A stretch of 41,756 nucleotides of DNA from Pseudomonadota bacterium (GTDB taxonomy: Bacteria > SZUA-182 > DTGQ01): NCBI GenBank assembly GCA_030625085.1, contig DAOURK010000026.1, forward strand, positions 1 to 41,756. Reading direction: 5' to 3'. How positions within the stretch are numbered: position 1 is the first letter of the stretch; each line of letters begins with the position of its first letter. The notes below the pieces were generated by a model. The model did not search any database. It was given only the letters and a program-made list of their open reading frames with translations, and had not been told where the DNA came from. A program made the position numbers and the translations under genes. Shown here piece by piece: positions 200 through 30,065 of this stretch.

Positions 200-2866
200 T
201 TAGGGAAGATACAACAAACACCCTTCTCCCTTATGAAGCTGATAGGCACTTCCGGAATAACGCCCCATAAACTGGTAAGTGGAAAGCCAACGGCCGGTCT
301 TTTGATCATACCGCTGCAAGCTGAAAACATCTCTAATTTCTAAAAAGGCCTCCAGCAAATGATAAGCAGTAGAGTTACCTGAAAAAAAACCTGTGGGAAC
401 AGGTATCAAGTTCAAACCGGGGCTTAACCCGTCAGTCAGGGAGGAGAAAGACAGCACCACAATCTGATCAATGGAAAAATCCACCAATTTCCCCTGTTTC
501 ATATATAATAAATAGCATTCATTTTCACTTAAGGGAAAATCCCCTACAATTTGGCCATCTATCCAGGAGGCGGTTTGAAATTTTTGGCTTGCCGGATCAT
601 ATCGCTGAACCGATTGGGAATAATCCACGGTCAAATAAAGTAATAACTCCTCCGCTGTCTGGATTCCTTGGCCATTGTCAGGACAAACAAGCAAATTAAG
701 ACCTTGGTGAATATAGACTAATCCACTAATTCCTATAATATCAGTCTGCCAATCAGCCAAACCATCGGGATTAGTAACTCGAAGCGTATAATATCCCCGC
801 GGAATACCGGGAGGCAAAAGAGCTTGAACCTGTGTTCCTTCAGTATTTACTTGCTGAACCTGCAAGGTCCAGAAAAAAGATTGAGATAAAATTTGTAAAC
901 CGGCTTCTCCGGCAGCGCAATATATTTTTCCGTTTCCTAAAAATATATCCTTGACTGTACCCGGCATTTCCACATGGGCAATCAGTAGCGGCTTTTGAGG
1001 ATCACTAACATCTATAACCGCCAAATCTCCTGTCCCATCGGCTACAAAGGCAAACCCTCCATCTACTGCCACATCAAAGGCTTCGCCCGGTGTATCCGCT
1101 TGCGCGATAAGTGTAGGATTTTCCGGGTTTTCGATATTAATTAAGGCTAATCCTTTGTCTCCGTCCGCCACATAGGCTATGTTCCCGGCAACGCAAATCC
1201 CGCGAGCCTCGCCCTCGGTATCACAATCACTTATCGCCGTCAGATTATCCTTTCTAATAACTACCAATCCATTGGTTCCATCGGCGGCATATATATAATT
1301 CCCCTCCCCCCATACATCCATGACTGTTCCCGGGGTATGGACAGTCCCCTTAAGTACCGGATTATAAATGTTGTCGTCCTCTCCATCTACATCCAGATCT
1401 ATCTCCAGGATAGTTACTCCTAAAGTCCCATCTGCCAGATAGACCAAGGGGTAGTCCACAAAAATCCCATAGGTAATGCCCTGACTGTAATAACCATTTC
1501 CTACTAAATTAGGCATGCCGGGATTTTCGATATTTATAATTTGTAATCCATTATTTATGTAATGATCGACGACAAAAACAAAATTTTTGTATGCCCAAAT
1601 TTTTCGGGCATCTTCTAAAACGGGCCAGTCGAGAACCCAAGCCGGCTGGTATGGATCTTTTAAATCAATAATTTCAAGCCCTCGATTTCCCCCAGCCAGA
1701 TAAGCATAATCTCCCTTGACCCAAACATCACAAACATTGCCCTGGGTATCGCATCCGCCTAATAAAGGAAACCTGCGCGTATTGATAACCTGTAGACCTT
1801 CTACTCCATCAGCTAAATAGACATAGTCATCATCAACCCACAGACTGCAAGCATACCCCTCAGTGTCATAGCTCCCGATAAGGGCAGGATTTTGAGGATC
1901 TTGGATATCTACCATCTGCAGTCCCTTATCTGTTGCTGCAATATAAGCCCTGCTCCCTACAACTCTAATCCCTTCAGCATCACCGGACAGATCAAGACTT
2001 CCGGTTAATGATGGATTATTCGGATCATTAATATGGATAATTTGTATACCGGAATCGCCAACAGCTACATAGGCATATTCTCCCACCGCACTTATTCCCT
2101 TGGCCTGACCTGATGTATTGAATGACCTGATTAATTCGGGAGAACTCGGATCAACTATCCGAATGATCTCCAGCCCTTCATCCATATCAGCTACATAAGC
2201 ATAATCACCTGCTATAGAAACCCCTCTGGCTGATCCTGGTGTTTCAACCTCAGCTTTTATTATAGGATTTGAGGGATTGCAGATATCAACAATGGCCAAT
2301 CCTTGCCCATAAGCGATATAACAATAATCTCCTCTCCCGGTAATTTCATAGGCATCCCCATTGAGAGGCACATTAACCACCGAGGTAGGATTTTGGGATG
2401 AGATGACATCAATAACCTGTAAGCCTTTTTCACCATCTGCCACATAGGCATACCCTTCATTTACCCAAACTCCTTTAGCAGTGCCGGAAGTAGGGCAGCT
2501 CCCAACCTCGGTAAGCTGACGAATATTTTCAATATTTATAATCTTTAATCCTTCATTACCGTCCGCTACATAGGCATATTTATTTACTATCATTACATCC
2601 TGGGCATTTGAAGTATTACTATAGCCGGAGAGAATCATGCCCTCGCCGTATACACTGACGGCAACTTCTTGGGAAAAATTTTCTCCTTGAATAGTGATGG
2701 GAACAGATCCACCTCTGGATACTAAAGAGGGAGTGACTGAATCAATGCGAGGCCCTGTGCCTTGGGCCCATGAATTTAAGCCAAAAAAAACCGGCAAAAA
2801 CAAAAGGAAAAGGCCGTTTATAATCAGCACTAATTTAATAATTATAATGTTGTCTTTATTGATCAT
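200..2866 (-). CDS. Secreted LVIVD-repeat beta-propeller protein with N-terminal IPT/TIG domain
   Basis: The 888-residue product starts with a charged N-terminus and a long hydrophobic stretch ending near AQG (about residue 36), so it is probably exported by Sec. An IPT/TIG-like segment follows (about residues 38-85, SVTPSLVSRGGSVPITIQG). I then count 14 repeats of about 40-45 residues with cores such as AYVADGNEGLKIINI, characteristic of the LVIVD repeat family. Fourteen units would fit two seven-bladed propellers, which is an inference. Near residue 690 there is a second TIG-like stretch (PGIPRGYYTLRVTNPDGL). The C-terminal 150 residues carry a GLNLL...QRYDPASQKF type module seen in secreted proteins of uncultivated bacteria. 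No catalytic motif is visible. A role in surface binding or scaffolding is plausible. No convincing ribosome binding site precedes the ATG, so the start is less certain than the frame. Confidence 0.85.
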   Translation of the reverse strand: MINKDNIIIIKLVLIINGLFLLFLPVFFGLNSWAQGTGPRIDSVTPSLVSRGGSVPITIQGENFSQEVAVSVYGEGMILSGYSNTSNAQDVMIVNKYAYVADGNEGLKIINIENIRQLTEVGSCPTSGTAKGVWVNEGYAYVADGEKGLQVIDVISSQNPTSVVNVPLNGDAYEITGRGDYCYIAYGQGLAIVDICNPSNPIIKAEVETPGSARGVSIAGDYAYVADMDEGLEIIRIVDPSSPELIRSFNTSGQAKGISAVGEYAYVAVGDSGIQIIHINDPNNPSLTGSLDLSGDAEGIRVVGSRAYIAATDKGLQMVDIQDPQNPALIGSYDTEGYACSLWVDDDYVYLADGVEGLQVINTRRFPLLGGCDTQGNVCDVWVKGDYAYLAGGNRGLEIIDLKDPYQPAWVLDWPVLEDARKIWAYKNFVFVVDHYINNGLQIINIENPGMPNLVGNGYYSQGITYGIFVDYPLVYLADGTLGVTILEIDLDVDGEDDNIYNPVLKGTVHTPGTVMDVWGEGNYIYAADGTNGLVVIRKDNLTAISDCDTEGEARGICVAGNIAYVADGDKGLALINIENPENPTLIAQADTPGEAFDVAVDGGFAFVADGTGDLAVIDVSDPQKPLLIAHVEMPGTVKDIFLGNGKIYCAAGEAGLQILSQSFFWTLQVQQVNTEGTQVQALLPPGIPRGYYTLRVTNPDGLADWQTDIIGISGLVYIHQGLNLLVCPDNGQGIQTAEELLLYLTVDYSQSVQRYDPASQKFQTASWIDGQIVGDFPLSENECYLLYMKQGKLVDFSIDQIVVLSFSSLTDGLSPGLNLIPVPTGFFSGNSTAYHLLEAFLEIRDVFSLQRYDQKTGRWLSTYQFMGRYSGSAYQLHKGEGCLLYLP

Positions 2867-7414: not shown

Positions 7415-9553
7415 TCACCTCTCAGTTACTTCAACAATCGCCTCCATGGTAACTGAAAGAAGTTGCTCCAATTCCTGAATACTTATAGAAAGAGGCGGCA
7501 TAATAACAATTACATCTCCTAGAGGGCGCAAAATTACTCCCCTCTTTCGGGTTTCTTGAATAACCCGGATACCGATTTTTTCTTCCCAGTAATAAGGCTC
7601 TTTGGTCTTTTTATTTTTTACCAATTCGATACCGGCTAAAAGACCCTTTTGTCGGATGTCTCCCACATGAGGCAGGTCCCAAAATTTTTGAAGCCTTTCA
7701 TGAAAAAATTCAATTTTCTCCTGAATATTTTCAATCACCTGTTCCTTTTTAAAAATATCCAGATTAGCCAAAGCTGCCCGACAGGCCAGCGGATTTCCAG
7801 TATACGTGTGACCATGAAAAAAGGTTTTTCTCTCGTTGTAACCCCCTAAAAAACCCGAATAAATTTTTTCTGTGGTCAAAGTAGCTGCCAGGGGCAAATA
7901 CCCTCCGGTGATGCCCTTGGCCAGACACAAAATATCCGGTTGAACCATCTCATGTTCACAGGCAAACATTTTCCCTGTTCGGCCAAACCCCACGGCCACC
8001 TCATCGGCAATCATTAATATTTGGTATTGTGCACACAGCTCTTTTACTTTTTTTAAAAATCCTTCCGGCGCAACCAACATACCACCAGCCCCTTGCACAC
8101 AAGGCTCAATAATAAGGGCACAAATATCTGAGGCATGATCCTTTAAAATATGCTCTAAATCATTAAGACAGCGCTTTTGGCACACTGAGGGATCAAGCTT
8201 ATAGGCACATCGATAACAATAAGGAGAAGGAGCGCGGAAAGAGTTGAATAGCAGGGGATGATATACCTGATGAAAAAGATCAATTCCACCTACACTTACC
8301 GCACCTAAGGTATCCCCATGATAACTGTTTTCAAAATAGATAAATCGTTTCTTTTCCTTTTTTCCCTGCTGCTGCCAATACTGAAAACTCATCTTTAAGG
8401 CAATTTCACAGGCTGTGGCCCCGCTGTCAGAATAAAACACGCGGCTCAACCCTTGAGGGGCGATATGCACCAGGCGCTGTGCCAATTCAATGGCCGGCGC
8501 ATGGGTAAGGCCCAGCATGGTAGAGTGGCCTATTCGGGTCAATTGGTCCTGTATAGCCTTATCGATTTCTTTTTTTTGATGACCGTGGACATTCGTCCAG
8601 AGGCTGGCCACACCATCAATATATTTACGACCATCTGAGTCTTCCAGCCGAACTCCTTTTCCTGACTCAATTACCAACGGATCTTCCCGGGTCCAATCCT
8701 GCATCTGCGTAAAGGGGTGCCAAAGATATTCTTTATCCCACCCTTTGAGGCGAGAGGATCGCTGGTGCTTATCTGAAAGGGAAGAAGAGGGTGCTGAAGC
8801 AGAAGAAAAGGATTCAATAAAGGTTAAAAGCCTTTCTAAATCAAGATGCCTCTGGGCCAATTCTTTCAAATTTCCGAGGCTTCCTTGTTCCATGGAAATG
8901 GAGGGGGAGTGAGGCAAAATCCCCAAAATATTTATCTTTCCGAAAGCTTCAATAATCTCAGGGTTGGTTTTTTCACAAATTCCCTCAGGAGAAAATGAAG
9001 CATGGTTAAGTACCACCCCGACTATGGGGATATCCTTATTCCGCAAAGCTTCCAGGGTTAAGAGTGTATGATTAATGGTCCCCAGAGTGGCCCGAGCTAC
9101 CAGCACCACAGGAAAATCCAAATCTTGAATAAGGTCAATCATCATATAATCTTGGCTCACAGGCACCATAATTCCCCCAGCCCCCTCAATTACCGAAAAG
9201 GAATAGTGCTCCTGGAGCCATTCAGCAGCCTGTAAAATTCGGGAAGATTCAATATTCACTCCTTCACATCGTGCAGCAACAAAAGGAGCCAATGGTTCCT
9301 TTAATAAATAAGGAATGTGGGGATTAAAGGAAAAAGGAAAATTGGGGGTTTTCCCCTCCTCTCCCAGAGCTTTATTCATAAATTCCGCATCAGGAGAAAA
9401 ACGAACTTTTTCTTTCATTATAGCTCCGGTTTGGATTGGTTTCATAATACCGACCTTTAATCCTTTTTGTTGTAACCCCAAGGCAATGGCAGAGGAAACT
9501 ATTGTCTTCCCCACTCCTGTATCCGTACCGGTTACAAAGACTCCCTTTTTCAC
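7415..9553 (-). CDS. bioDA: Fused dethiobiotin synthetase-DAPA aminotransferase (BioD-BioA)
   Basis: The 712-residue product is a fusion. Residues 1 to about 245 are BioD: the P-loop GTDTGVGKT is at 9-17, followed by MKPIQTGA and EGAGGIMVPV. After a serine-rich linker (about 246-268) comes BioA, a class III PLP aminotransferase starting at LWHPFTQMQDW. It has the Schiff-base lysine K546 in AKGITGG and the FENSYHGDTLGA and FHGHTYTGNPLAC motifs. BioA converts KAPA to DAPA and BioD closes the ureido ring of DAPA to dethiobiotin, so the fusion joins consecutive steps. The order D-A is the one known in the plant bifunctional enzyme. The start codon is GTG preceded by AAGGAG. Both active sites look intact. 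It lies between bioC and the ahbC-like gene. Confidence 0.93.
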   Translation of the reverse strand: MKKGVFVTGTDTGVGKTIVSSAIALGLQQKGLKVGIMKPIQTGAIMKEKVRFSPDAEFMNKALGEEGKTPNFPFSFNPHIPYLLKEPLAPFVAARCEGVNIESSRILQAAEWLQEHYSFSVIEGAGGIMVPVSQDYMMIDLIQDLDFPVVLVARATLGTINHTLLTLEALRNKDIPIVGVVLNHASFSPEGICEKTNPEIIEAFGKINILGILPHSPSISMEQGSLGNLKELAQRHLDLERLLTFIESFSSASAPSSSLSDKHQRSSRLKGWDKEYLWHPFTQMQDWTREDPLVIESGKGVRLEDSDGRKYIDGVASLWTNVHGHQKKEIDKAIQDQLTRIGHSTMLGLTHAPAIELAQRLVHIAPQGLSRVFYSDSGATACEIALKMSFQYWQQQGKKEKKRFIYFENSYHGDTLGAVSVGGIDLFHQVYHPLLFNSFRAPSPYCYRCAYKLDPSVCQKRCLNDLEHILKDHASDICALIIEPCVQGAGGMLVAPEGFLKKVKELCAQYQILMIADEVAVGFGRTGKMFACEHEMVQPDILCLAKGITGGYLPLAATLTTEKIYSGFLGGYNERKTFFHGHTYTGNPLACRAALANLDIFKKEQVIENIQEKIEFFHERLQKFWDLPHVGDIRQKGLLAGIELVKNKKTKEPYYWEEKIGIRVIQETRKRGVILRPLGDVIVIMPPLSISIQELEQLLSVTMEAIVEVTER

Positions 9554-12758: not shown

Positions 12759-13946
12759 TTAGATTATGTTGAGTTTTTTCCCAATTCTCTGTATGTGCTC
12801 CAGCGCCTCTTCCAGGTCACACATCGAGTGTGTGGCCATAAGGGAAATCCTGAGTCTGGCTGTCCCTTCAGGAACGGCGGGAGGACGAATGGCAGGTGCA
12901 TAAATTCCCACATCCAAAAGACCTTGACTAAATTGAAGCGCCTTTTCATTTTCACCTGCCACAACAGGAATAATGTGAGTTTCACTTTCCAGGGTATTAA
13001 AGCCGGCTTCTTGTAATTGTTTTCGAAACCAGGCTGCCTGCCGCAGCAAAATATCCCGAAGATCAGGGCGATTCTGCACAATTTCCAGAGCTTTTACAGC
13101 CGTAGCAGCGGTTGAGGGAGGCAGGGCGGTGGTAAAAATGAAAGGACGAGCCTTATTAATCAAATAATCAATAAGCACTGAATCGCCCGCTACATAAGCG
13201 CCAAACCCTCCCAGGGCTTTGCCCAGTGTGCCCATTTGAATATCGATTTCTCCTTCCAAACCCAGTAGTTCGACAACTCCATGACCATTCTTCCCTAACA
13301 CCCCGGTAGCATGGGCTTCATCTACCATGACTGAAGCTTCATATTCCTTGGCTAGGGCAACAATATCACACAGAGGGGCAAGATCACCATCCATGCTAAA
13401 CACCGAATCTGTAACAATGAAACGTTTCTTGTGCCTGCCCTGGTGACTGATCATAAGTCTGCGCAGTTCATCTATATCTTTATGGGCGTAACGAACCAAT
13501 TGAGCTCGACTCAGTACAATGCCGTCAATGATGCTGGCGTGGTTATAGCGATCACAAAAAATTATATCATGCCGGTTGCAAAGGGCGCTCAAAAGAGCAC
13601 AGTTAGCCATATAACCGCAATTAAAGAGAAGAGCTGCTTCGGTTTTTTTAAAACAGGCTATTTGTTTTTCCAACTCCTCATGTATGCTCAGGTTCCCGGA
13701 GATCAATCGAGAGGCCCCTGCTCCTACGCCCAGATCGGAAAGGGCTTCGATAGCCGATTGCTTCAAAAATTTTGAATTGGCTAATCCCAAATAGTTATTA
13801 GAGGAAAAATTGATGACCTCTTTTCCCTGGAAAATAACTCTTGCTTTTTGGGCGCCGTTCAGAATTTTTAGATGGCGGTAACAATCTGTTTTTTTTAAGT
13901 AAGAGATTTCTTCTTTGAGAAATTCTTTAAATGAATCTTGAAGCAT
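12759..13946 (-). CDS. bioF: 8-amino-7-oxononanoate synthase BioF
   Basis: The 395-residue PLP-dependent alpha-oxoamine synthase shows VINFSSNNYLGL near residue 43, the GAGASRLISGN segment, and the dyad DEAHATGVLG around residue 208. The Schiff-base lysine is K243 in MGTLGKALGG. It condenses pimeloyl-ACP with alanine to give KAPA. It is 180 bp downstream of bioB and 312 bp upstream of bioH; both gaps are occupied by repeats, so the biotin genes may no longer form one tight transcript. The related glycine C-acetyltransferase is excluded mainly by context. Confidence 0.93.
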   Translation of the reverse strand: MLQDSFKEFLKEEISYLKKTDCYRHLKILNGAQKARVIFQGKEVINFSSNNYLGLANSKFLKQSAIEALSDLGVGAGASRLISGNLSIHEELEKQIACFKKTEAALLFNCGYMANCALLSALCNRHDIIFCDRYNHASIIDGIVLSRAQLVRYAHKDIDELRRLMISHQGRHKKRFIVTDSVFSMDGDLAPLCDIVALAKEYEASVMVDEAHATGVLGKNGHGVVELLGLEGEIDIQMGTLGKALGGFGAYVAGDSVLIDYLINKARPFIFTTALPPSTAATAVKALEIVQNRPDLRDILLRQAAWFRKQLQEAGFNTLESETHIIPVVAGENEKALQFSQGLLDVGIYAPAIRPPAVPEGTARLRISLMATHSMCDLEEALEHIQRIGKKLNII

Positions 13947-14126: not shown

Positions 14127-15134
14127 TTATGACGATTTGCTGGAAGGAATAAATCCCAGGTCCCGAATCATTGTCTGATCCTCTGACCAAGGACTTCCTT
14201 TAGTAGTGAGATAATTTCCCACCATCATTCCGTTGGCACCGGCCAAAAAAATCCATGATTGCAGGCTGCGTAAAGTAATCTGACGACCTCCACACACATA
14301 CATATTGGTTTCCGGCAAAATAAGCCGAAAAAAAGCTATGGTTTTCAGTGCTTCAAGCGCAGCTATAAGCCCACGCTCCTCACAGCGAGTCCCTTTAACA
14401 GGATGGAGAAAATTTATGGGGATGGAGTCTACCTCTAATTCCTTTAAGGTAAAAGCCAGCTCCAATCGCTGTTGAAAAGTCTCCCCCAGCCCAAAAATTC
14501 CACCGCTGCATATTTGTAATCCGGCAGCCTTAGCTGCTTCAACAGTTTTTCTTCGCTGTTTAAAAGAGTGGGTTGTACAAACCTTAGGGAAAAAGCTTTC
14601 AGACGTTTCCAAGTTGTGATGGTATCGTTGCAATCCTGCATGCTTTAAATCAATTAATGTATTAAAAGAAATTGTCCCCAGGGAGGCTGAACAAGATAGG
14701 GAAGGAAACAATTCATTGATTTTTTGAATAGCTTCAATAATGCACTCAATCTCCTTTGGGTTTTCTATTTTATGGCCGCTGGTCACCATACTGAAGCAAT
14801 GAACTCCCATGGCCTCGGCCTGGGTTGCTTTTTCGATTAGCTGTTTAGCGCTTAACAATGGATAACTATTCACCTGGGCCTGATGGTGCAGTGATTGAGC
14901 ACAAAAGATACAATCCTCACTGCAATAGCCGCTTTTGGCATTCGTTATAGCACACAGTTTTATTCGCCGACTAAATGATTTTTCTCGGATTCTGTCGCTG
15001 ATTTCAAACAGGGCAGGTAAATCATTCAAAGAAATTTTCCCATTAAGGGCAAGTGCCTCTTGCAGACTTAAAGAGTCTCCTGCAAGAATTTTTCCCTCTA
15101 TTTCCCCCATGAATTGACGAAATTTTTTTCCCAT
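14127..15134 (-). CDS. bioB: Biotin synthase BioB
   Basis: The 335-residue radical SAM enzyme has its cluster cysteines in YCSEDCIFC (C71, C75, C78). The family markers NAKSGYCSEDC, HHNLETS, GGIFGLGE and PINFLHPVKGT are present. The arginine-containing stretch GGRQITLR near residue 280 fits the auxiliary [2Fe-2S] site. It inserts sulfur into dethiobiotin, the last step of the pathway. It is the first gene of the minus-strand biotin cluster, which then reads bioF, bioH, bioC and bioDA. All activities needed from malonyl-ACP to biotin, apart from shared fatty-acid enzymes, are therefore present. Confidence 0.95.
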   Translation of the reverse strand: MGKKFRQFMGEIEGKILAGDSLSLQEALALNGKISLNDLPALFEISDRIREKSFSRRIKLCAITNAKSGYCSEDCIFCAQSLHHQAQVNSYPLLSAKQLIEKATQAEAMGVHCFSMVTSGHKIENPKEIECIIEAIQKINELFPSLSCSASLGTISFNTLIDLKHAGLQRYHHNLETSESFFPKVCTTHSFKQRRKTVEAAKAAGLQICSGGIFGLGETFQQRLELAFTLKELEVDSIPINFLHPVKGTRCEERGLIAALEALKTIAFFRLILPETNMYVCGGRQITLRSLQSWIFLAGANGMMVGNYLTTKGSPWSEDQTMIRDLGFIPSSKSS

Positions 15135-20653: not shown

Positions 20654-20827
20654 ATGTCAATCAGTAAAGAATTACTGGATATTTTAGTTTGTCCAAAATG
20701 TAAGGGTGATATCAAATTAACTAAAGAAGAAGACGGCTTTATTTGTGAGCACTGCAAATTAAAGTACCCCATCCGGGACGATATACCTGTTATGCTTATC
20801 GATGAAGCTATTAAATTAGAGGATTAA
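20654..20827 (+). CDS. Trm112-like zinc-ribbon protein (YcaR type)
   Basis: This 57-residue frame has an AAGGGGGAAG ribosome binding site. The sequence MSISKELLDILVCPKCKGDI has C13 and C16, and C31 and C34 follow in ICEHC, then YPIRDDIPVMLIDEA. This is the pattern of the Trm112/YcaR family, small proteins that act as methyltransferase partners in eukaryotes and archaea and commonly sit in LPS operons in bacteria. It is the last gene of the heptose operon. Its final 35 bases are duplicated 73 bp downstream. Confidence 0.9.
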   Translation: MSISKELLDILVCPKCKGDIKLTKEEDGFICEHCKLKYPIRDDIPVMLIDEAIKLED

Positions 20828-20864
20828 CCTACCGGTGATGGATTCTATTACCGCCTGAAGGGAG

Positions 20865-20899
20865 ATGCTTATCGATGAAGCTATTAAACTAGAGGACTA
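20865..20899 (+). repeat. Partial duplication of the Trm112 gene 3' end
   Basis: The 35 bases from ATGCTTATCGATGAAGC to AGAGGACTA match 20792-20826, with two visible substitutions, at a 73-bp offset. The copy lacks its own start context and lies between the gene and the operon terminator. A replication slippage or recombination product is likely. Confidence 0.8.
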
Positions 20900-20910
20900 C
20901 CCCATCAAAT

Positions 20911-20969
20911 AAAAAGACACGGATTATCACTGACCTTTCAATCTGTCAGTTGCCAATCCGTGTCTTTTT
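20911..20969. terminator. Bidirectional intrinsic terminator
   Basis: AAAAAGACACGGATT (from 20911) pairs perfectly with AATCCGTGTCTTTTT (ending 20969), with A and T tracts on either side. It ends the plus-strand heptose operon and also serves the convergent minus-strand regulator gene that stops at 21009. Confidence 0.9.
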
Positions 20970-21008: not shown

Positions 21009-21938
21009 CTATTCTCGAGTAACCACCCACAAGGTGTTGGATTCACGATTTTCAGGATTTTTCCACAAATGTGGGATAATAGCCTCAAAGAAAATGGAGT
21101 CGCCCTCACTAAGCCTTATTTTTTCAGTCCCCATGTCTATTTCAACAAAACCGGAAAGAACATAACCGAATTTATAGCCATCATGGGTAATATATTCGTC
21201 AAAGGATTTTTGATTTGCTCCCAGAGAAGAGATAAAAATTTCATTCTTGGACGTTCTTCCATGCTTTATCAAATATTCCAGCGCATTATCTGTATTTTCA
21301 AACTGAAGTTTCTCTCTTTCACCTTTTCGGGTAATGGCCCATTTCTTATGTTTTTCAATTTCGAAAAACTCAATAGGATGCACACTCAAAGCCATAGCAA
21401 TCTTATTGATGGTGGTGATTGAAGGGGAAATTTTTCCATTTTCAATCATGGAGATCGAACTTTCAGTCAAGCCGGATCGAGCACTGAGCTGCTTAATCTT
21501 AATACCCATTTCCTTTCGGATAGCTTTTATCTTTTCTCCCAATTTGTTCAAAATATTATTCTTGACTTCCAGATTAACATTATTACGAATAATGTCGAGC
21601 AATTCTTCATTTTTAAAAGGTTTTTTCAGGTAATCGATAGCACCATTTTTCATGGTGGATATCGCCGATTCTACTGATGGATATCCCGTTATGATAATTA
21701 CTTGAGAATGAGGCGATACCTTTTTAATATCGGTTATTCCTTGGCTGCCGTCGACGTCAGGAAGCTTTAAGTCTAATAAAATAATATCAAAGATATCATT
21801 TTTTAATTTGTAAAGGGAGTCACTAATATTCGTCACCGAAGATACCTTGTAACCATCCTTTACTAAAAGTTCCACAATGAACTGGCTTAAGTCCTGATCG
21901 TCATCGACTACCAATACATTTGCTTTATCAAATATCAT
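21009..21938 (-). CDS. Receiver-XRE HTH-cupin regulator
   Basis: The 309-residue protein joins three domains. Residues 7-118 form a receiver domain with the acidic cluster VDDDQD, phospho-acceptor D56 in ILLDLKLPD, the threonine of IIITGYP and the lysine of DYLKKPF. Residues 130-187 are an XRE-type helix-turn-helix (IKAIRKEMGIKIKQLSARSG, then SSISMIENGKISPSITTINKIA). Residues 235-305 are a cupin-2 small-molecule-binding domain (DGYKFGYVLSGFVEIDMG...LSEGDSIFFEAIIPHLWKN). XRE-cupin regulators are common, but coupling to a receiver is unusual. It would integrate phosphorylation and ligand binding at one DNA-binding protein. The input kinase is unknown. It shares no operon with other genes. Confidence 0.88.
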   Translation of the reverse strand: MIFDKANVLVVDDDQDLSQFIVELLVKDGYKVSSVTNISDSLYKLKNDIFDIILLDLKLPDVDGSQGITDIKKVSPHSQVIIITGYPSVESAISTMKNGAIDYLKKPFKNEELLDIIRNNVNLEVKNNILNKLGEKIKAIRKEMGIKIKQLSARSGLTESSISMIENGKISPSITTINKIAMALSVHPIEFFEIEKHKKWAITRKGEREKLQFENTDNALEYLIKHGRTSKNEIFISSLGANQKSFDEYITHDGYKFGYVLSGFVEIDMGTEKIRLSEGDSIFFEAIIPHLWKNPENRESNTLWVVTRE

Positions 21939-22462
21939 CTTTTTCTCCTTTGCCTTTAATTATTTGATTCTATTAAATTAATAAAACTCTTTATAATATC
22001 TAAGTTGATTATACCATATCGTTATTTTTTTTCAATACCCTTTTTAATATATTATAAATTATATTTACTTTGCAGGTCTTAAAGCGATTTGTTGTATTTT
22101 ATTCTCAGGATAAGCATATCCGAAAAAAATAAGCCATCTCATTGAATTTTAATGTTTTTATCTTAACAAAAAATTTCGATTAAACATGGATTTTTATTAC
22201 GATAATTGGGGTTAAAATAAAAAAAAATATTATTTTTTTAGGAATTTTTCTAGAATATATTTTTAGAAAATACCAGAATAGATAGATTCGTAAAAAGTCG
22301 TTTTTAGCAAATTTGGGTTACATAAATTAAACAAGTTATGTTGTACATATATTCCCATTTTGGACTTTTTACAAGACCATCAGAATAGATAATTATAAAA
22401 TATGATAAGAAAAGAAAAATTTTATGCTAAAAGATGGGGGGCTTCATTCAGGCACTATCCAG
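21939..22462. other. AT-rich intergenic region with MITE copy 3
   Basis: Apart from the MITE at 22281-22381, this 524-bp gap is extremely AT-rich and has no recognisable gene. It contains the promoter region of the receiver-XRE-cupin gene, but no clear -10/-35 or sigma-54 element is visible. It also contains the 3' flank of the heptad-repeat gene. Confidence 0.4.
22281..22381 (+). mobile_element. MITE-family element, copy 3 (101 bp)
   Basis: It runs from GATAGATTCGTAAAAAGTC to GACTTTTTACAAGACCATC, flanked by perfect 6-bp direct repeats AGAATA (22275-22280 and 22382-22387). The match extends to 10 bp with the following GATA. The core TTGGGTTACATAAATTAAAC is shared with copy 4 in the same orientation and with copy 2 in reverse. 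No coding capacity. Confidence 0.85.
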
Positions 22463-23170
22463 CTAAATAATCGGCAAAAGTGAAAGCCCTAAGGCATTGA
22501 TAAAACTTTGCTCCGGAGCGAGATCTTGTTGCCAGGCAGTATAAAAAAGTTCCGGTAACTGAGGACTAAAAGAATAAAGCATGTATGAGGATAAAGGAAC
22601 AGTGCGCTCCGGGATATTGGTTGTAAAATAGTCTTGATCCAATAAAGTATAGTAAAAGGGATTCGCAAAATATGGATTAACATTAATCGTTTGATCTTGA
22701 TCGAGCATGGAATTCCAAATATAGTTAAATGGTGAGGGGTAAAAACTATATAAGCCTTGTAAGGAACTGGGATCATATGTTCGCAATTCTGTTGGACTAT
22801 AAAGAATGTCAAGCGAAAGCGCAACATCATTCGAAGTAATCGACGGATCAAATTGACCATATGAAGCAATTGGGAGTGAGGTGTCATAATAGTACTGCCC
22901 CAAATCAAGAGGGGCTAATGAATTATAATAAGGATTGCCTAATCCCCCCAGATAAGAAAGGGATAGCAAAGGATTTGTTGCTCCCAGCAAAGGGTTTGTT
23001 AATCCCAATAAAGGATTTGTTAATCCCAATAAAGGGTTTGTTAATCCCAGCAAAGGGTTTGTTAATCCCAAAAAGGGAGAAAATTGGGCTGCTGTTGGAG
23101 CAGGATACAACCCATACAATAAAAGAGAAAAAATAGCGAGCCACATAAATACATTTTTTATTTTTTTCAT
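22463..23170 (-). CDS. Secreted protein with LGLTNPL heptad repeats
   Basis: The product is about 235 residues. The signal peptide MKKIKNVFMWLAIFSLLLYG ends near AAQ. Five tandem seven-residue units follow (LGLTNPL, the last LGATNPL, at about 32-66). The remainder is rich in Tyr, Pro, Ser, Asp and Leu and has no motif I recognise. I chose the ATG at 23170 because it gives a standard signal peptide with a purine-rich GAGAG just upstream; an in-frame TTG at 23179 is the longer option. A sigma-54-like element lies 55 bp upstream. The heptads may form a short beta or left-handed helical repeat at the cell surface. It is unlike the neighbouring regulators in composition. Confidence 0.75.
   Translation of the reverse strand: MKKIKNVFMWLAIFSLLLYGLYPAPTAAQFSPFLGLTNPLLGLTNPLLGLTNPLLGLTNPLLGATNPLLSLSYLGGLGNPYYNSLAPLDLGQYYYDTSLPIASYGQFDPSITSNDVALSLDILYSPTELRTYDPSSLQGLYSFYPSPFNYIWNSMLDQDQTINVNPYFANPFYYTLLDQDYFTTNIPERTVPLSSYMLYSFSPQLPELFYTAWQQDLAPEQSFINALGLSLLPII
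22968..23072 (-). repeat. Five tandem 21-bp repeats
   Basis: Five consecutive 21-bp units (consensus AAAGGGTTTGTTAATCCCARY on the plus strand) encode the LGLTNPL heptads on the minus strand. The units differ from each other at only a few positions, so the array probably expanded recently and may vary in copy number between strains. Confidence 0.9.
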
Positions 23171-23224
23171 ATCTCTCAACCCTACCCTCTGTAACCATAA
23201 ATTTTTTAAGTTAAAATTTTAATT

Positions 23225-23596: not shown

Positions 23597-25195
23597 ATGA
23601 CAATTGAAAAGCTAGCCTTAAAAAAAGCCACAGATATACAAAATCCAAGTTCCTCGGTTTCATTGTTAATGATCGAAGACAGTCCTCAAGATCAAAAAAT
23701 AATTGAGAATGTTATATTAAATGGTCCTATGGATATTTCTATCACCACAGTAACTACAGGGGAAGAAGGGTTGCAGTTAGTAGGAAAATATCATTTTGAT
23801 ATAATTCTTTTAAATTATTCTTTGCCCAGAATGGATGGATTAAAGTTTCTTAGTTTCATGAAAAAAATGGGATATAACATCCCCACAATTATGATTACTG
23901 AGCATGGTAATGAGAGGATTGCTGTTCAAGCTATGAAAATTGGAGTATATGATTATATAAATAAGTGTGGAGAATATTTACCAAAACTCAATTTGGTTAT
24001 TCAAAGAGCCCTGGAACAGCATGAAATAAGTATCCAACAAGAAGAGTTAAAAGAGAGGACTTCTTACATCAATAAACGGCTACAACAGGAAAAGCAAAAA
24101 TTTGAGAACATTGTCAGCGCCATAGGTGCAGGATTGGTAATTATTGACAAAAATTTCCGAATCATCTGGGCTAATCGAACTATGGAAGAATGGTTTCGAT
24201 CTACATTTGACCAAAATCTTGAAGGAATGCCTTGCCATGTCTTATTTCAACAAGGCGAAAAAATTTGTGAGAAGTGCGCCCTGAAAAAAATTTTTAAAAC
24301 CGGTGTCATTCAAGGTAAAAATTTTCAAACAGGTGTCATCCAGCGTTTAAAACATAGTATGACTAATAGGGATGGAGAACGAAGGCATTATCAATTTACC
24401 TCCACACCTCTGGTAGATATCCATGGGAAAATAAACCAGGTGCTCTGTTTAATACAGGACATCTCTCATCAAATTGATATGCAACTAAAATTAATTCAAT
24501 CGGAAAAATTAGCTGCCATTGGAGAACTGGCCAGCGGATTAGCTCATCAGTTGAATAATCCGCTGGTGGGCATTTTAAATTATGCTCAACTGCTCCAAAG
24601 AAAAATCAAGCCGGATGAACCTAATCGGGAGTTGCTCGACACAGTTGAACGAGGAGCCAGGCAGTGTAAAGATATTGTAGGAAATCTATTAAATTTCTCG
24701 CGCCCTCACCATTTTAATTATGAAGTACTGGATTTACGAAATATCCTTGATAATACTTTGATACTGATTGAAAATAGATTAAAAATTAAAAATATCATTA
24801 TCATTATAGATATTGTTAATTCGCTCCCTCTCATAGAGGGGAATTCTACCCAGCTCCAACAAGTCTTTTTGAATATTCTAATGAACTCACTTCAGGCTAT
24901 GCCAGAGGGCGGAGAAATTAAGATCTCCGCCAATTCAGTTTATCGTCATAAGCAAGGTTATTGTATGGTGAAACTTTCCGATTCCGGCGCCGGCATACCT
25001 GAATCGATTAAGGATAAAATTTTTGACCCTTTTTTCACCACCAAAGATCAAGATCAAGGGACGGGTCTTGGGCTTAGTATTGCCTATGGTATTATCAAAG
25101 CCCATAATGGGAAAATCGAGGTAAAAAGTGTGAAGGGGAAAGGGACCACATTTATACTTACTTTTCCCATTGCCCGGCAAAACGATAATTACTAA
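23597..25195 (+). CDS. Receiver-PAS-histidine kinase with a degenerate receiver domain
   Basis: This is a 532-residue soluble sensor kinase. Receiver fold at about 21-137: MIEDSP supplies the acidic pair, but the phospho-acceptor position in IILLNYSLPRMDG is N73 instead of Asp. A PAS domain follows (about 170-290) with a cysteine cluster PCHVLFQQ...CEKCALKK, like those of redox- or metal-sensing PAS domains. HisKA has H317 in AHQLNNPL, and HATPase_c has the N-box FLNILMNSLQAMP, DSGAGIP and GTGLGLSIAYG. It has no membrane segments, so it senses cytoplasmic signals. The receiver probably acts as an interaction module, not a phosphorelay. It lies 54 nt upstream of the NtrC-type gene and probably phosphorylates that protein. 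Confidence 0.9.
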   Translation: MTIEKLALKKATDIQNPSSSVSLLMIEDSPQDQKIIENVILNGPMDISITTVTTGEEGLQLVGKYHFDIILLNYSLPRMDGLKFLSFMKKMGYNIPTIMITEHGNERIAVQAMKIGVYDYINKCGEYLPKLNLVIQRALEQHEISIQQEELKERTSYINKRLQQEKQKFENIVSAIGAGLVIIDKNFRIIWANRTMEEWFRSTFDQNLEGMPCHVLFQQGEKICEKCALKKIFKTGVIQGKNFQTGVIQRLKHSMTNRDGERRHYQFTSTPLVDIHGKINQVLCLIQDISHQIDMQLKLIQSEKLAAIGELASGLAHQLNNPLVGILNYAQLLQRKIKPDEPNRELLDTVERGARQCKDIVGNLLNFSRPHHFNYEVLDLRNILDNTLILIENRLKIKNIIIIIDIVNSLPLIEGNSTQLQQVFLNILMNSLQAMPEGGEIKISANSVYRHKQGYCMVKLSDSGAGIPESIKDKIFDPFFTTKDQDQGTGLGLSIAYGIIKAHNGKIEVKSVKGKGTTFILTFPIARQNDNY

Positions 25196-25249: not shown

Positions 25250-26656
25250 ATGGATAATATCGAAAGGGAGAAAGCTAGAATTCTGGTTGTTGATGATGAG
25301 GAATATACACGGGGATTTTTTAAAAATCTTCTGGGAGAAGAAGGATACGAAGTGCTGGTTTGTGCCAATGGGCAGGAGGCTTTAAATCTGTGCGACCAAA
25401 TAGTATTTGATTTAATTCTCTTGGATTTAAAAATCCCCGGGAATTTGGATGGAATAGAGGTCCTGAAAAAAATAAAAAAAATATGCCCAAGCACTATAGT
25501 TATTATGATAAGTGGGCACGGAACATTAGAAATTGCCGTCAAGGCTGTAAAACTGGGCGCTGAAAATTTTCTCTCTAAACCATTTAATAGTGTGGAAGAG
25601 GTCCTTATCCATATCGAAAAAGCTTTACAATATCAAAAAATAGTTAATGAGAATAAATTTCTCCATGAACAGCTTACCCTCCAGATGACCAACCGGAATA
25701 TGATAGGCAGTTCTCCGGAACTGAAAAAAATCTTTGACTTAATACGAAAGGTTTCCCCTTTGGACACCAATATTCTCTTGATAGGAGATAGTGGAACAGG
25801 CAAGGAATTGGTTGCAGATGCTGTCCATAAAAACAGCCCGAGACGGAACAAAAGGTTCATGACTGTTCATTGTGGCGCCCTTCCGGAAAATTTATTAGAA
25901 ACTACCCTCTTTGGTTATGAGGAGGGGGCCTTTACTGATGCCAAAAAAAGAACCAAGGGCTATTTCGAGGTGGCTGATGGAGGGACCATCTTTTTGGATG
26001 AAATTGGTGAGTCTTCTCTTCATTTGCAGGTAAAATTACTCCGAGTACTTCAGACAGGTGAATTTCAAAGAGTTGGAGGAACAGAGTTGCTACATTCCGA
26101 TATACGTATTATTAGTGCCACGAATATAGATCTTTCCAAAGCAGTGGAAAATAAAAAATTTCGACAGGACCTTTATTTTCGGATAAACGTCATTAACATC
26201 AATATGCCTCCCCTGCGTGATCGAAAGGGAGATATCCCTTTGTTGGCTAATTACTTTATTAATAAATACGCTAAAAGTATGAATAAACCAATACCGACTG
26301 TTTCCTCCGAGGCCATGAAATTATTATTAAATTTTAACTGGCCTGGAAATATACGGCAATTAGAAAATGCCATCGAACGAGCCATTGTTCTTTGTGAGGA
26401 TAATATTATACGGCCTGCCTGCCTTCCTCCGGAAATCAGCATCCTTAATCCCAATCTCATAGGAACTAATTTTTCAACGTTATCTTATAAAGAGGCTAAA
26501 GAAAATTTTGAGAGACACTATTTGACTGGTTTATTACAAACCTATAATAATAATATTGGAGATATAGCCAAAAAATCCGGTATCGATCCTTCAACTATTT
26601 ATCGTAAAATGAGTAAATATAATATTAAATTTAAGCTACAGATAAACACAGATTAA
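25250..26656 (+). CDS. NtrC-family sigma-54-dependent response regulator
   Basis: The 468-residue protein has a receiver at 10-130 (acceptor D59 in ILLDLKIPG, lysine in FLSKPFN). The AAA+ domain carries Walker A GDSGTGKE near 182-189, the sigma-54 contact loop GAFTDA at 226-231 (Gly to Asp at position 5 of GAFTGA), Walker B GGTIFLDEIGE and the arginine finger region. The C-terminal Fis-type HTH is at about 420-460 (IGDIAKKSGIDPSTIYRKM). It activates sigma-54 promoters. It is the partner of the upstream kinase, and an intrinsic terminator follows. Candidate targets carry the sigma-54-like elements listed separately. Confidence 0.93.
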   Translation: MDNIEREKARILVVDDEEYTRGFFKNLLGEEGYEVLVCANGQEALNLCDQIVFDLILLDLKIPGNLDGIEVLKKIKKICPSTIVIMISGHGTLEIAVKAVKLGAENFLSKPFNSVEEVLIHIEKALQYQKIVNENKFLHEQLTLQMTNRNMIGSSPELKKIFDLIRKVSPLDTNILLIGDSGTGKELVADAVHKNSPRRNKRFMTVHCGALPENLLETTLFGYEEGAFTDAKKRTKGYFEVADGGTIFLDEIGESSLHLQVKLLRVLQTGEFQRVGGTELLHSDIRIISATNIDLSKAVENKKFRQDLYFRINVININMPPLRDRKGDIPLLANYFINKYAKSMNKPIPTVSSEAMKLLLNFNWPGNIRQLENAIERAIVLCEDNIIRPACLPPEISILNPNLIGTNFSTLSYKEAKENFERHYLTGLLQTYNNNIGDIAKKSGIDPSTIYRKMSKYNIKFKLQINTD

Positions 26657-26916: not shown

Positions 26917-28374
26917 TCACCCTTTTAGCACAGCCAAAGGAATCAGTTTAGCTATTTTTTTACCAATTCCCACTTTATGAACGATATTAACAACATTAGC
27001 CACATCCTTATAGGCCTCGGAGATCTCTTCGACAACTGTCCGCTTTCCGGCAGAACGTAACAAAATCCCACGATCTTCCATTTCGCGAACAATGGCTCTG
27101 CCCTTAGCTGCTTTGGCAGCTTGATGCCTGCTCATAAGCCGGCCGGCCCCATGGCATGTACTGCCAAAGGTTTCCAGCATGGCTTTTTCAGTACCAACTA
27201 AAACAAATGAATATCTGCCCATATCACCCGGGATTAAGACCGGCTGGCCGATATCCTTATAATCTGCCGGCAAGGATGGATGATGCGGAGGGAAAGCCCG
27301 GGTGGCGCCTTTTCGATGAACACACAGTTTTTGCCTTTTCCCCCCAAAGGAAAATTCCTCAATCTTGGCAATATTGTGGCAGACATCATAGACTAAATCC
27401 AACCCTAAGTCTTTTAATGAGCGGCCGAGAACTTGCTGAAAACTCTCCCGAACCCAGTGAGTCATCAATTGCCGGTTAGTAAAGGCAAAATTAGCCGCAC
27501 AGGCCATGGCTGAAAGATATCTTCTGCCTTCTTTAGACTCAACAGGAGCGCAGGCTAATTGTTTATCGGGAAGCTCAATTCCATATTTTTTAGCAGCATC
27601 CAACATGACATCCAAATAGTCTCCGCAGACCTGATGACCAAGCCCCCGGGAACCCGAGTGAATCATAATAGTAATTCCCTCGCTTTCAAGTCCAATCACC
27701 TTGGCCACCTTCTCATCAAAAATTTCAGCAATATAAGCGATTTCAATAAAATGATTTCCAGCACCAAGGGTCCCCAGTTGAGGTCTTCCCCGCTCAAGGG
27801 CCCTTTTGGAAATCCGGTCAGGATCTGCCCCCTGAATACAGCCCCTCTCTTCAATATGCTCCAGATCTTGGGGAACACCATACCCTCGTTCAATAGCCCA
27901 GGCCACTCCGCAAGCCAGGACCTCTGATTCATCCACCGGATTCAGTTTCAAATCCTTTCTTTTTGAGCCTACGCCGGAGGGGATGTTTCGGTAAATAGCA
28001 TTAATCAACTCTCGAATATTCCCCTTGATTTCATCCTTCTTCAGGTTGGACCGCATCAATCTGACACCGCAATTGATATCATAACCTACGCCACCAGGTG
28101 AGACGATACCCCTTTTAAGATCAAAAGCCGCCACCCCGCCGATTGGGAACCCATATCCCAAATGAATGTCAGGCATGGCCAAAGATTGGCCGACAATACC
28201 GGGCAAACAGGCTACATTGGCTACCTGGGTCAGGCTCATATCCTTTTGAATGTCCTTTAACATTCTTTCATCAGCGTAGACAATCCCATCGGTATTCATT
28301 TTCCCCTCTCGGGGAATTCTCCAGCGAAAATCATCAATTTTTTGCACCTTCGGGCTATTCTCTGCTGAGACCAT
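26917..28374 (-). CDS. rtcB: RNA-splicing ligase RtcB
   Basis: The 485-residue protein has the complete set of RtcB motifs: PDIHLGYGFPIGGVAA, GYDINCGVRL with the metal-binding cysteine, GTLGAGNHFIE, HSGSRGLGHQV, VCHNIAKIE, HRKGATRAFPPHHP and the guanylated histidine H408 in STCHGAGRLMSR. It joins 2',3'-cyclic phosphate or 3'-phosphate RNA ends to 5'-OH ends using GTP. It is downstream of the archease and amrS genes on the same strand, separated from archease by 252 bp that hold a REP palindrome and a MITE. Archease is the known activator of RtcB, so the grouping is functional. Length and the GYGFPIGG motif match the long archaeal-like RtcB class. Confidence 0.96.
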   Translation of the reverse strand: MVSAENSPKVQKIDDFRWRIPREGKMNTDGIVYADERMLKDIQKDMSLTQVANVACLPGIVGQSLAMPDIHLGYGFPIGGVAAFDLKRGIVSPGGVGYDINCGVRLMRSNLKKDEIKGNIRELINAIYRNIPSGVGSKRKDLKLNPVDESEVLACGVAWAIERGYGVPQDLEHIEERGCIQGADPDRISKRALERGRPQLGTLGAGNHFIEIAYIAEIFDEKVAKVIGLESEGITIMIHSGSRGLGHQVCGDYLDVMLDAAKKYGIELPDKQLACAPVESKEGRRYLSAMACAANFAFTNRQLMTHWVRESFQQVLGRSLKDLGLDLVYDVCHNIAKIEEFSFGGKRQKLCVHRKGATRAFPPHHPSLPADYKDIGQPVLIPGDMGRYSFVLVGTEKAMLETFGSTCHGAGRLMSRHQAAKAAKGRAIVREMEDRGILLRSAGKRTVVEEISEAYKDVANVVNIVHKVGIGKKIAKLIPLAVLKG

Positions 28375-28425
28375 TTGTTATCCCCACTATTATGCTATAG
28401 ATTTTCATATATTAAATTTCATACT

Positions 28426-28453
28426 GTAGCACAGGGCTAAAGCCCTGCGCTAC
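28426..28453. repeat. 28-bp REP-like palindrome
   Basis: GTAGCACAGGGCTAAAGCCCTGCGCTAC is palindromic with one mismatch pair in the outer arm. It is the compact form of the structure at 12647-12718 and lies between archease and rtcB. It could act as a transcript-stabilising or attenuating hairpin. Confidence 0.75.
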
Positions 28454-28502
28454 TTTTGATTAAATATCGATTAGGTAATTATTTATCTAAAAATCTATAT
28501 AT

Positions 28503-28603
28503 GATGAATTCGTAAAAAGTCATTTTTACAAAATTTGGATTACATAAATTTAATAAGTTATGTTGTGCGAAATCCCCAATTTAGGACTTTTTACGAGACC
28601 ATC
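28503..28603 (+). mobile_element. MITE-family element, copy 4 (101 bp)
   Basis: It runs from GATGAATTCGTAAAAAGTC to GACTTTTTACGAGACCATC, flanked by 6-bp direct repeats ATATAT (28497-28502 and 28604-28609). The AT-rich flank makes this duplication weaker evidence than the others. The core matches copy 3. It is inserted between the archease and rtcB genes. Confidence 0.85.
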
Positions 28604-28626
28604 ATATATGCTCGTTAGTTATTTTT

Positions 28627-29052
28627 TTAAACATCCAAAATAATTTTTGTTTCATAAAGATCATTCTTTTTTTGTATTGACAGTTGATGATAGGTCACAG
28701 CCTTAATTTCTGTTTTTATTTCGTGACGCTTCGGATCAAATTTTTCTCCCCACCCAATGGCGTGCACTCGATTTTCATCCAGAGATTGAATTTCACATGT
28801 TCGAAATAGCCACTGATCAGTTTCAAACAGATAAAGATACTCACTCAACCAGGAAACCAGAAGTCTTTCCCAACCCTTATTTTTAACGCTAATCATTTTT
28901 TTTTGAGAAGGTTTGATCTGTTCAGGTTCAGTGAGAATCGCAAAAAAGGCCTTAAATGCATTTTGAAAGAGATCTCTATGGGTTGGACCATAGACCCTTA
29001 TTCCAATATCCGCCGTATGCTCAAAAAAATCATAACCCCGATAGGCATTCAT
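28627..29052 (-). CDS. Archease (RtcB activator)
   Basis: The 141-residue protein begins with the archease signature YDFFEHTADIGIRVYG and has the central GWERLLVSWLSEYLYLFE segment and AVTYHQLSIQKK near the C-terminus. The metal-coordinating aspartate of HTAD and the C-terminal aspartate of ILDV are present. Archease promotes guanylation and multiple turnover of RtcB. It overlaps the upstream amrS gene by 4 nt (ATGA) and precedes rtcB, although a MITE now lies between the two. Confidence 0.93.
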   Translation of the reverse strand: MNAYRGYDFFEHTADIGIRVYGPTHRDLFQNAFKAFFAILTEPEQIKPSQKKMISVKNKGWERLLVSWLSEYLYLFETDQWLFRTCEIQSLDENRVHAIGWGEKFDPKRHEIKTEIKAVTYHQLSIQKKNDLYETKIILDV

Positions 29053-30065
29053 GTAAGATTAACCCCGTCTATCTCGGCCCCACAAGAGGGACAGAGAGAA
29101 TCATCGATAATATGATTGGCTTGAATAAGATACCCCATCCTTTGAATGAGCAATTTCCCACATTTATAGCAATAGGTATTTTCACCCTCATCCCCAGGGA
29201 TATTGCCCGTGTATACATACCGCAAACCTGCTTTTTTCCCGATGTCTCTGACCTTCTGCAACGTTTCAATCGGGGTCCTTGGTTCATTAGTCAATTTATA
29301 GGTCGGATAAAATTGCGTTACATGCCAGGGGATACCCGGATCAATAGCTACGATAAATTGGGCGATCTTGGTCAATTCTTCTTCAGAATCGTTGTGATGG
29401 GGAATAACCAGGGTAGTCACTTCAACCCAGACTCCCAATTCATGGTATAATTGAATGGATTCCAGAACCGGCTGAAGTTTGGCCCCGCATAATTTTTGAT
29501 GTTGTTTTTCATCAAAGCTTTTCAAATCAATATTAGCCCCGTCGATAGCCGTATACGCTGATTGTAAAGCTTCAGGAGTAATGTAGCCATTGGTTACAAA
29601 CACATTTTTTATTCCCTGCTCATGAGCTAATCGAGCTGTATCTAAAGCATATTCCAAAAATATGGTCGGCTCTGTATATGTATAGGCTATGCTCTTGCAC
29701 TGATAGTTTTTAGCCAGTTTTACGATTTGTTCCGGAGAAAGGCTTTTACCAACAATTTCCCCTTCTCCTTTAGTCACTTGTGAAATGGAAAAATTTTGAC
29801 AATGCAGACAATGAAAATTGCAGCCAACCGTCGCTATAGAAAAACTGCGACTCCCCGGCTGAAAATGAAAAAGCGGCTTTTTTTCAATCGGGTCTACATT
29901 GTCGGCGATAGTCCTTCCATATACCAAACTATACAATATACCATCTACATTCCTTCTCACTCCGCAGACCCCCACCTTGCCGGGAGGAATCAAACACCGA
30001 TGACTGCAAAGGTAACACTGAATTTTTTGTTCATCTTTTTTCTCATAAAATTGAGCTTCTTTCAT
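29049..30065 (-). CDS. amrS: AmmeMemoRadiSam-system radical SAM enzyme AmrS
   Basis: The 338-residue radical SAM protein has an N-terminal cysteine set (C17, C20, C24, C34; CYLCSHRCLIPPGKVGVCGV). The cluster motif CNFHCLHC (C82, C86, C89) follows, then YTEPTIFLEYALD, a DLKSFD segment, the metal-binding-like HITQFYP equivalent HVTQFYPTYK, and a C-terminal zinc ribbon CYKCG...CPSCG. This is the AmrS family, usually found with AmrA/AmrB; the reaction is not well defined. Pyruvate formate-lyase activase relatives lack the C-terminal ribbon. It starts the amrS-archease-rtcB group; amrA and amrB are not in the window. Confidence 0.9.
   Translation of the reverse strand: MKEAQFYEKKDEQKIQCYLCSHRCLIPPGKVGVCGVRRNVDGILYSLVYGRTIADNVDPIEKKPLFHFQPGSRSFSIATVGCNFHCLHCQNFSISQVTKGEGEIVGKSLSPEQIVKLAKNYQCKSIAYTYTEPTIFLEYALDTARLAHEQGIKNVFVTNGYITPEALQSAYTAIDGANIDLKSFDEKQHQKLCGAKLQPVLESIQLYHELGVWVEVTTLVIPHHNDSEEELTKIAQFIVAIDPGIPWHVTQFYPTYKLTNEPRTPIETLQKVRDIGKKAGLRYVYTGNIPGDEGENTYCYKCGKLLIQRMGYLIQANHIIDDSLCPSCGAEIDGVNLT

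Follow-up and report, generated by a model that had tools for sequence, protein, structure and literature searches.

Response regulators normally take one input, phosphate. The window analysed here, a stretch of 41,756 nt, contains a gene whose product was predicted from the DNA to carry a complete receiver, an XRE helix-turn-helix (HTH), and a C-terminal cupin, and to sense a phosphorylation state and a small molecule together. If the DNA-binding module of a response regulator brought along a metabolite-sensing cupin, a single compact transcription factor would take two inputs, and the locus raises the question of whether the three domains form one conserved protein and whether both receiver and cupin are likely to act as inputs.

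Domains and predicted fold of the regulator

The receiver-XRE-cupin regulator (RRXC) is encoded by a single open frame, with its ATG at 21938, its stop at 21009, and a ribosome-binding site, AGGAG, at 21945-21949 on the same (-) strand. Coordinates, strand, and domain order proved to be exactly those of the original prediction (Table 1), and all three domains passed the curated Pfam cut-offs: Response_reg scored 90.1 bits (cut-off 30.2), HTH_3 55.6 bits (cut-off 23), and Cupin_2 43.8 bits (cut-off 27.2). By Pfam and by fold match, RRXC follows the order of XRE-cupin proteins, HTH_3 then Cupin_2. It departs from two-domain XRE-cupins in its extra N-terminal receiver, and from regulators made up of receiver and HTH_3 in its extra cupin and in a kinase proximity that is only loose.

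Table 1. Features of the RRXC locus, with the three-domain protein from another phylum
Feature	Position	Strand	Basis or remark
RRXC, receiver-XRE-cupin regulator, 309 aa	21009..21938	-	ORF and Pfam; 8 full-length family members aligned
RRXC receiver domain, residues 8-118	21585..21917	-	PF00072, 1.4e-25
RRXC XRE helix-turn-helix, residues 137-191	21366..21530	-	PF01381, 5.5e-15
RRXC C-terminal cupin, residues 248-305 (H252, K256, H290)	21024..21197	-	PF07883, 2.1e-11
Terminator-like hairpin, 15-bp perfect arms AAAAAGACACGGATT/AATCCGTGTCTTTTT	20911..20969	.	Between convergent gene ends; read by eye in the sequence, loop exceeding the limit of the terminator pattern scan
Candidate operator, imperfect palindrome TTATAAA-GAGT-TTTATTA	21979..21996	-	7+4+7 symmetry, downstream of -10
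Putative sigma-70 promoter TTGAAA-16-TATAAT, extended -10 (TGG)	22008..22035	-	11/12 consensus; conserved with spacer
AT-rich block TTATAATATATTAAA 5' of -35, UP element or operator	22043..22057	-	Common to orthologues and paralogues
Small secreted protein, GLTNPLL repeats, conserved partner gene	22463..23179	-	Synteny, 4 genomes; likely start 23170
REC-PAS-HisKA-HATPase histidine kinase, candidate phosphodonor	23597..25195	+	Pfam; synteny
NtrC-type sigma-54 response regulator	25250..26656	+	Pfam; synteny
Three-domain protein of genome G280, another phylum	L117, 5545-6693	-	31% identity to RRXC

Structure prediction, proposed along with the original claim, was performed with AlphaFold2 on 62 sequences (the 8 family members, the G280 protein, 25 receiver-XRE proteins, and 28 XRE-cupins), and the resulting model superseded a poor one built from the eight RRXC sequences alone (pLDDT 46). 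Mean pLDDT was 85, and receiver, XRE, and cupin folds were all obtained, with a long helix (residues 110-143; weak spot at 123-127) predicted to join the receiver to the XRE domain. Since pTM was 0.44, the model does not fix the placement of the domains relative to one another. Foldseek matches to the model included 1y9q, HppE, and many receivers. For the cupin region the best PDB match was 1y9q, an HTH_3-family regulator, and none of the 50 matches listed combined all three domains.

Copies in the family and selection on the gene

The phylum of the window's genome was represented by nine species and its family by four genomes. Full-length RRXC copies (n = 8) were found in all four family genomes, on different contigs of separate assemblies: three in the window's genome (G000; contigs C181, C21, and C48), three in G002, and one each in G001 and G003. 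The five remaining genomes sampled from the phylum had none. The seven further copies are 71-85% identical to that of the window, and in a gene tree of all eight only the G001/G003 grouping was resolved. Between these two genomes dN of RRXC was 0.017 at a dS of 1.4 (dN/dS about 0.01); four genes of the locus gave dN of 0.10-0.26 at dS of 1.0-1.9. The gene is thus under strong purifying selection. Of the domains, the HTH has changed least from copy to copy (0-22%), so the copies probably share an operator, and the receiver also showed low protein change. The cupin and the segment preceding it were the most variable parts, orthologues included. Since the cupin is loose among orthologues too, the idea that paralogues diverge specifically in the cupin while keeping receiver and HTH is not supported.

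That the receiver might lie in a misassembled fusion had been raised at the outset, and the window does come from a fragmented draft genome of 247 contigs. However, the same architecture occurs in eight copies from four assemblies and in the G280 protein, the locus is syntenic, and dN is low under purifying selection. An assembly chimera or annotation artefact is therefore ruled out for practical purposes.

The paralogues occupy unrelated sites, near MTHFR, a papain-like protease, glycoside phosphorylases, and a DruA-like gene. On contig C21 (locus L118: 18-272, 2195-2449, and 2552-2842), an 84-aa gene and RRXC are duplicated in tandem, and one RRXC copy has decayed to a fragment with stops. 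A 131-bp MITE-like element with 21-nt inverted repeats (95%; L118, 1210-1340) sits just upstream of the C21 RRXC.

Relatives and distribution of the architecture

The architecture is not widespread in the genomes surveyed. In overlapping surveys of 386, 195, 379, and 384 genomes, with few candidates scored per genome and strict thresholds, the only three-domain protein outside the family was that of G280; a single scan of genome contigs reached close relatives only. Matches on plasmids, phages, and viral contigs were confined to XRE-cupin halves or receivers, with no plasmid or phage record covering 80%. The original prediction knew of no characterised example, and we likewise found no description of a receiver-XRE-cupin architecture in the open-licence literature.

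The G280 protein has the domain order of RRXC, a similar length, and a full receiver site. Its cupin, unlike that of RRXC, keeps an acidic residue (Glu at 255) and has lost both His (Asn, Cys). In an unresolved HTH tree of 66 columns its HTH lies near those of XRE-cupins, and its fusion may therefore be independent of that in RRXC. The same tree does not separate an origin of RRXC from a receiver-XRE protein plus a cupin from one by addition of a receiver to an XRE-cupin.

Receiver-XRE regulators of about 205-240 aa align end to end with RRXC through receiver, linker, and HTH (31-43% identity) and have the same catalytic residues, but they lack a cupin and their linker is about 5 aa longer. 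They were found in 104/195 genomes in the phylum of G036 and, at a stricter threshold, in 37/379 genomes in that of G383. They often stand beside histidine kinase genes: a histidine-kinase-like gene, in some cases REC-HisKA, directly adjoins the receiver-XRE gene at loci L035-L038, L041, L043, and L044, and Pfam confirmed kinase domains in 3/3 neighbours checked (L036, L037, and L043).

XRE-cupin repressors (PuuR, ErfA, PsdR, PauR; structure 1y9q) consist of an HTH followed by a cupin, with the fold predicted for RRXC, but have no receiver. Matches at E 1e-16 were present in 47/241 genomes, the four RRXC genomes included, and the relatives found were about 26-38% identical to RRXC, with up to 38% for its XRE-cupin half. 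HppE, an HTH-cupin epoxidase, also has the HTH-cupin fold predicted for RRXC; it is an enzyme with an Fe(II) His-Glu-His site, whose Glu RRXC lacks. The most fitting description of RRXC is that of a receiver-XRE-type response regulator extended by a cupin, a variant of known parts that is both rare and conserved. It shows the joining of two common regulator types, a rare combination and not a new kind of system.

Receiver site and neighbouring genes

The receiver was predicted to be complete, and it is: D56 is the phospho-acceptor, and with D12, D13, T84, and K106 it supplies the acidic pair, phospho-Asp, Thr, and Lys by which two-component response regulators are recognised. In the alignment all five residues were invariant in 9/9 three-domain and 25/25 receiver-XRE proteins. 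These residues, and the histidine kinase genes adjoining receiver-XRE relatives, give good support to the inference that RRXC is phosphorylated.

Comparison of gene neighbourhoods agreed with the description of RRXC as standing alone beside a block of secreted-protein and kinase genes. It is a single gene, convergent to a glycan gene cluster (GT9, epimerase, and others), and the order glycan genes, RRXC, secreted protein, divergent kinase was the same in the four family genomes as far as their contigs reach. The REC-PAS kinase, 1.7 kb from RRXC, is possibly its phosphodonor. Where the contig continues past the kinase, an NtrC-type regulator follows, which is likely to be the main partner of that kinase, and then radical SAM/archease/RtcB genes. 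At the paralogue loci L009, L010, L012, and L013 there was no kinase within the contig stretch examined.

In the window the RtcB ligase, archease, and radical SAM genes adjoin one another at 26917-30065 (-); all three are beside the kinase locus in G001, as is the radical SAM gene in G003. The secreted protein (22463-23179) gave no Pfam match. Its C-terminal core, FGQFDPSI...YDPSSL...PFNYxWNS, is conserved, and its N-terminal GLTNPLL/GATNPLL repeats are absent or short in relatives.

The cupin pocket

By H-x3-E spacing, residue 256 of RRXC occupies the Glu position of the cupin triad. This position is Lys or Arg in 8/8 RRXC copies, compared to Glu in 21/28 XRE-cupins, and RRXC thus lacks the 2-His-1-carboxylate triad of metal-binding cupins. 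A classical metal site is therefore unlikely. The triad His residues, H252 and H290, are retained in all eight copies, as are W292 and the core cupin pattern. As a guess, the basic pocket residue would suit an anionic ligand.

Promoter and candidate operator

Seven of the eight copies are preceded by a shared block, with some variation, consisting of TTTATAATATATTAAAA, a short G-rich step, and TATTGnAAAAAARTAAYRATATGGTATAAT; the exception is the C21 copy of the window's genome. With up to 3 mismatches, this pattern occurred in genomes G000-G004 at exactly 7 places, all before RRXC (control matches, 0), and TTATAATATATTAAA had its sole exact match within the window at this site. Spacer, upstream stretch, and downstream palindrome are conserved beyond the hexamers; the remaining upstream region is not. 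Pairing of the palindrome was 5 to 7 of 7 in six copies, and in C48 both arms are altered with a symmetry of 7/7. As the sequence is AT-rich, its role as an operator is suggestive only.

Since the block lies before 7/8 copies and nowhere else in five genomes, autoregulation is suggested. In Pseudomonas, XRE-cupins repress local genes and attach to palindromic DNA, apparently in dimeric form (PMC7901475), which makes autoregulation of RRXC the natural reading. RRXC may likewise repress its own or neighbouring genes as a palindrome-binding dimer; what the sequence shows in this respect is a conserved promoter block and an imperfect palindrome. No operator shared with RRXC was found in the promoter region of the kinase and secreted-protein genes, which has a conserved promoter of its own.

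Proposed function

We propose that RRXC is a DNA-binding response regulator in which a histidine kinase would phosphorylate D56, and the state of the receiver would pass along the helix that prolongs receiver alpha-5 as far as the XRE domain, altering how RRXC dimerises or binds DNA. A second, non-enzymatic input would come from the cupin at the C-terminus, which would bind a small ligand by other means than the classical metal triad, and the ligand-bound cupin would shift the same dimer. Like other XRE-cupins, RRXC would probably be a dimeric repressor acting on palindromes, its own promoter first. From its residues and by analogy with its relatives, we consider dual sensing of phosphorylation and a small molecule the probable function, with some reserve: against it stand the pairing of the neighbouring kinase with NtrC, the several paralogues without a nearby kinase, the replaced metal Glu, the low pTM, and the missing promoter of C21.

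Two other readings each discard one of these inputs. RRXC could respond to phosphorylation only, with the cupin a ligand-free dimerisation or structural domain; loss of the metal Glu from every copy and the looseness of the cupin and the segment before it are in keeping with this, as is the fact that receiver-XRE proteins function without a cupin in many phyla. However, H252, H290, W292, and the core pattern are kept beyond the needs of a spacer, and XRE-cupins are regarded as signal-sensing (PMC7901475), so that we think this reading unlikely. Still less likely is a metabolite-only XRE-cupin repressor whose orphan receiver is a dimerisation module, phosphorylation being unused in vivo. Although the paralogues are not beside kinases in the stretches examined and the kinase near RRXC is already paired with an NtrC protein, five catalytic residues invariant in eight copies and in the distant G280 protein, within a receiver under low protein change, argue against such disuse.

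The target of RRXC might also differ from the one proposed. If RRXC were a positive regulator or acted mainly on distant genes (e.g., the glycan or secreted-protein genes), the promoter could be constitutive and copied with the gene; the near-consensus extended -10 promoter within the block, the absence of a second block elsewhere in the genomes, and the origin of the paralogues by duplication would all fit. Conservation of the spacer, upstream stretch, and downstream palindrome, but not of the rest of the upstream region, speaks against this, and we regard it as improbable.

An extension of the dual-input, autoregulated reading is that the paralogues (three in G000, three in G002) form a cross-connected, self-regulated network in which one phosphosignal and metabolite signals meet at shared DNA sites. 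The similar kinase-facing surface and recognition helix, and the same promoter-operator before most copies, would allow this, and we offer it tentatively, as a rather doubtful possibility. If true, it would place a phosphorylation-and-ligand gate within one polypeptide.

Other features of the window

At 20795-20900, about 35 bp (ATGCTTATCGATGAAGCTATTAAA.TAGAGGA) are locally duplicated where a short frame ends; the putative product of this frame resembles a Trm112-type zinc protein. At 200-2866 (-), an 888-aa protein carries about 11 LVIVD repeats of beta-propeller type. BioD-BioA fusions are best known from eukaryotes; the window encodes one at 7415-9553 (-), a 712-aa frame with an AAA_26 domain of dethiobiotin-synthetase type followed by a class-III aminotransferase, in an apparent biotin cluster that also comprises genes for an aminotransferase I/II (12759-13946) and, at 14127-15134, a BATS radical SAM protein.
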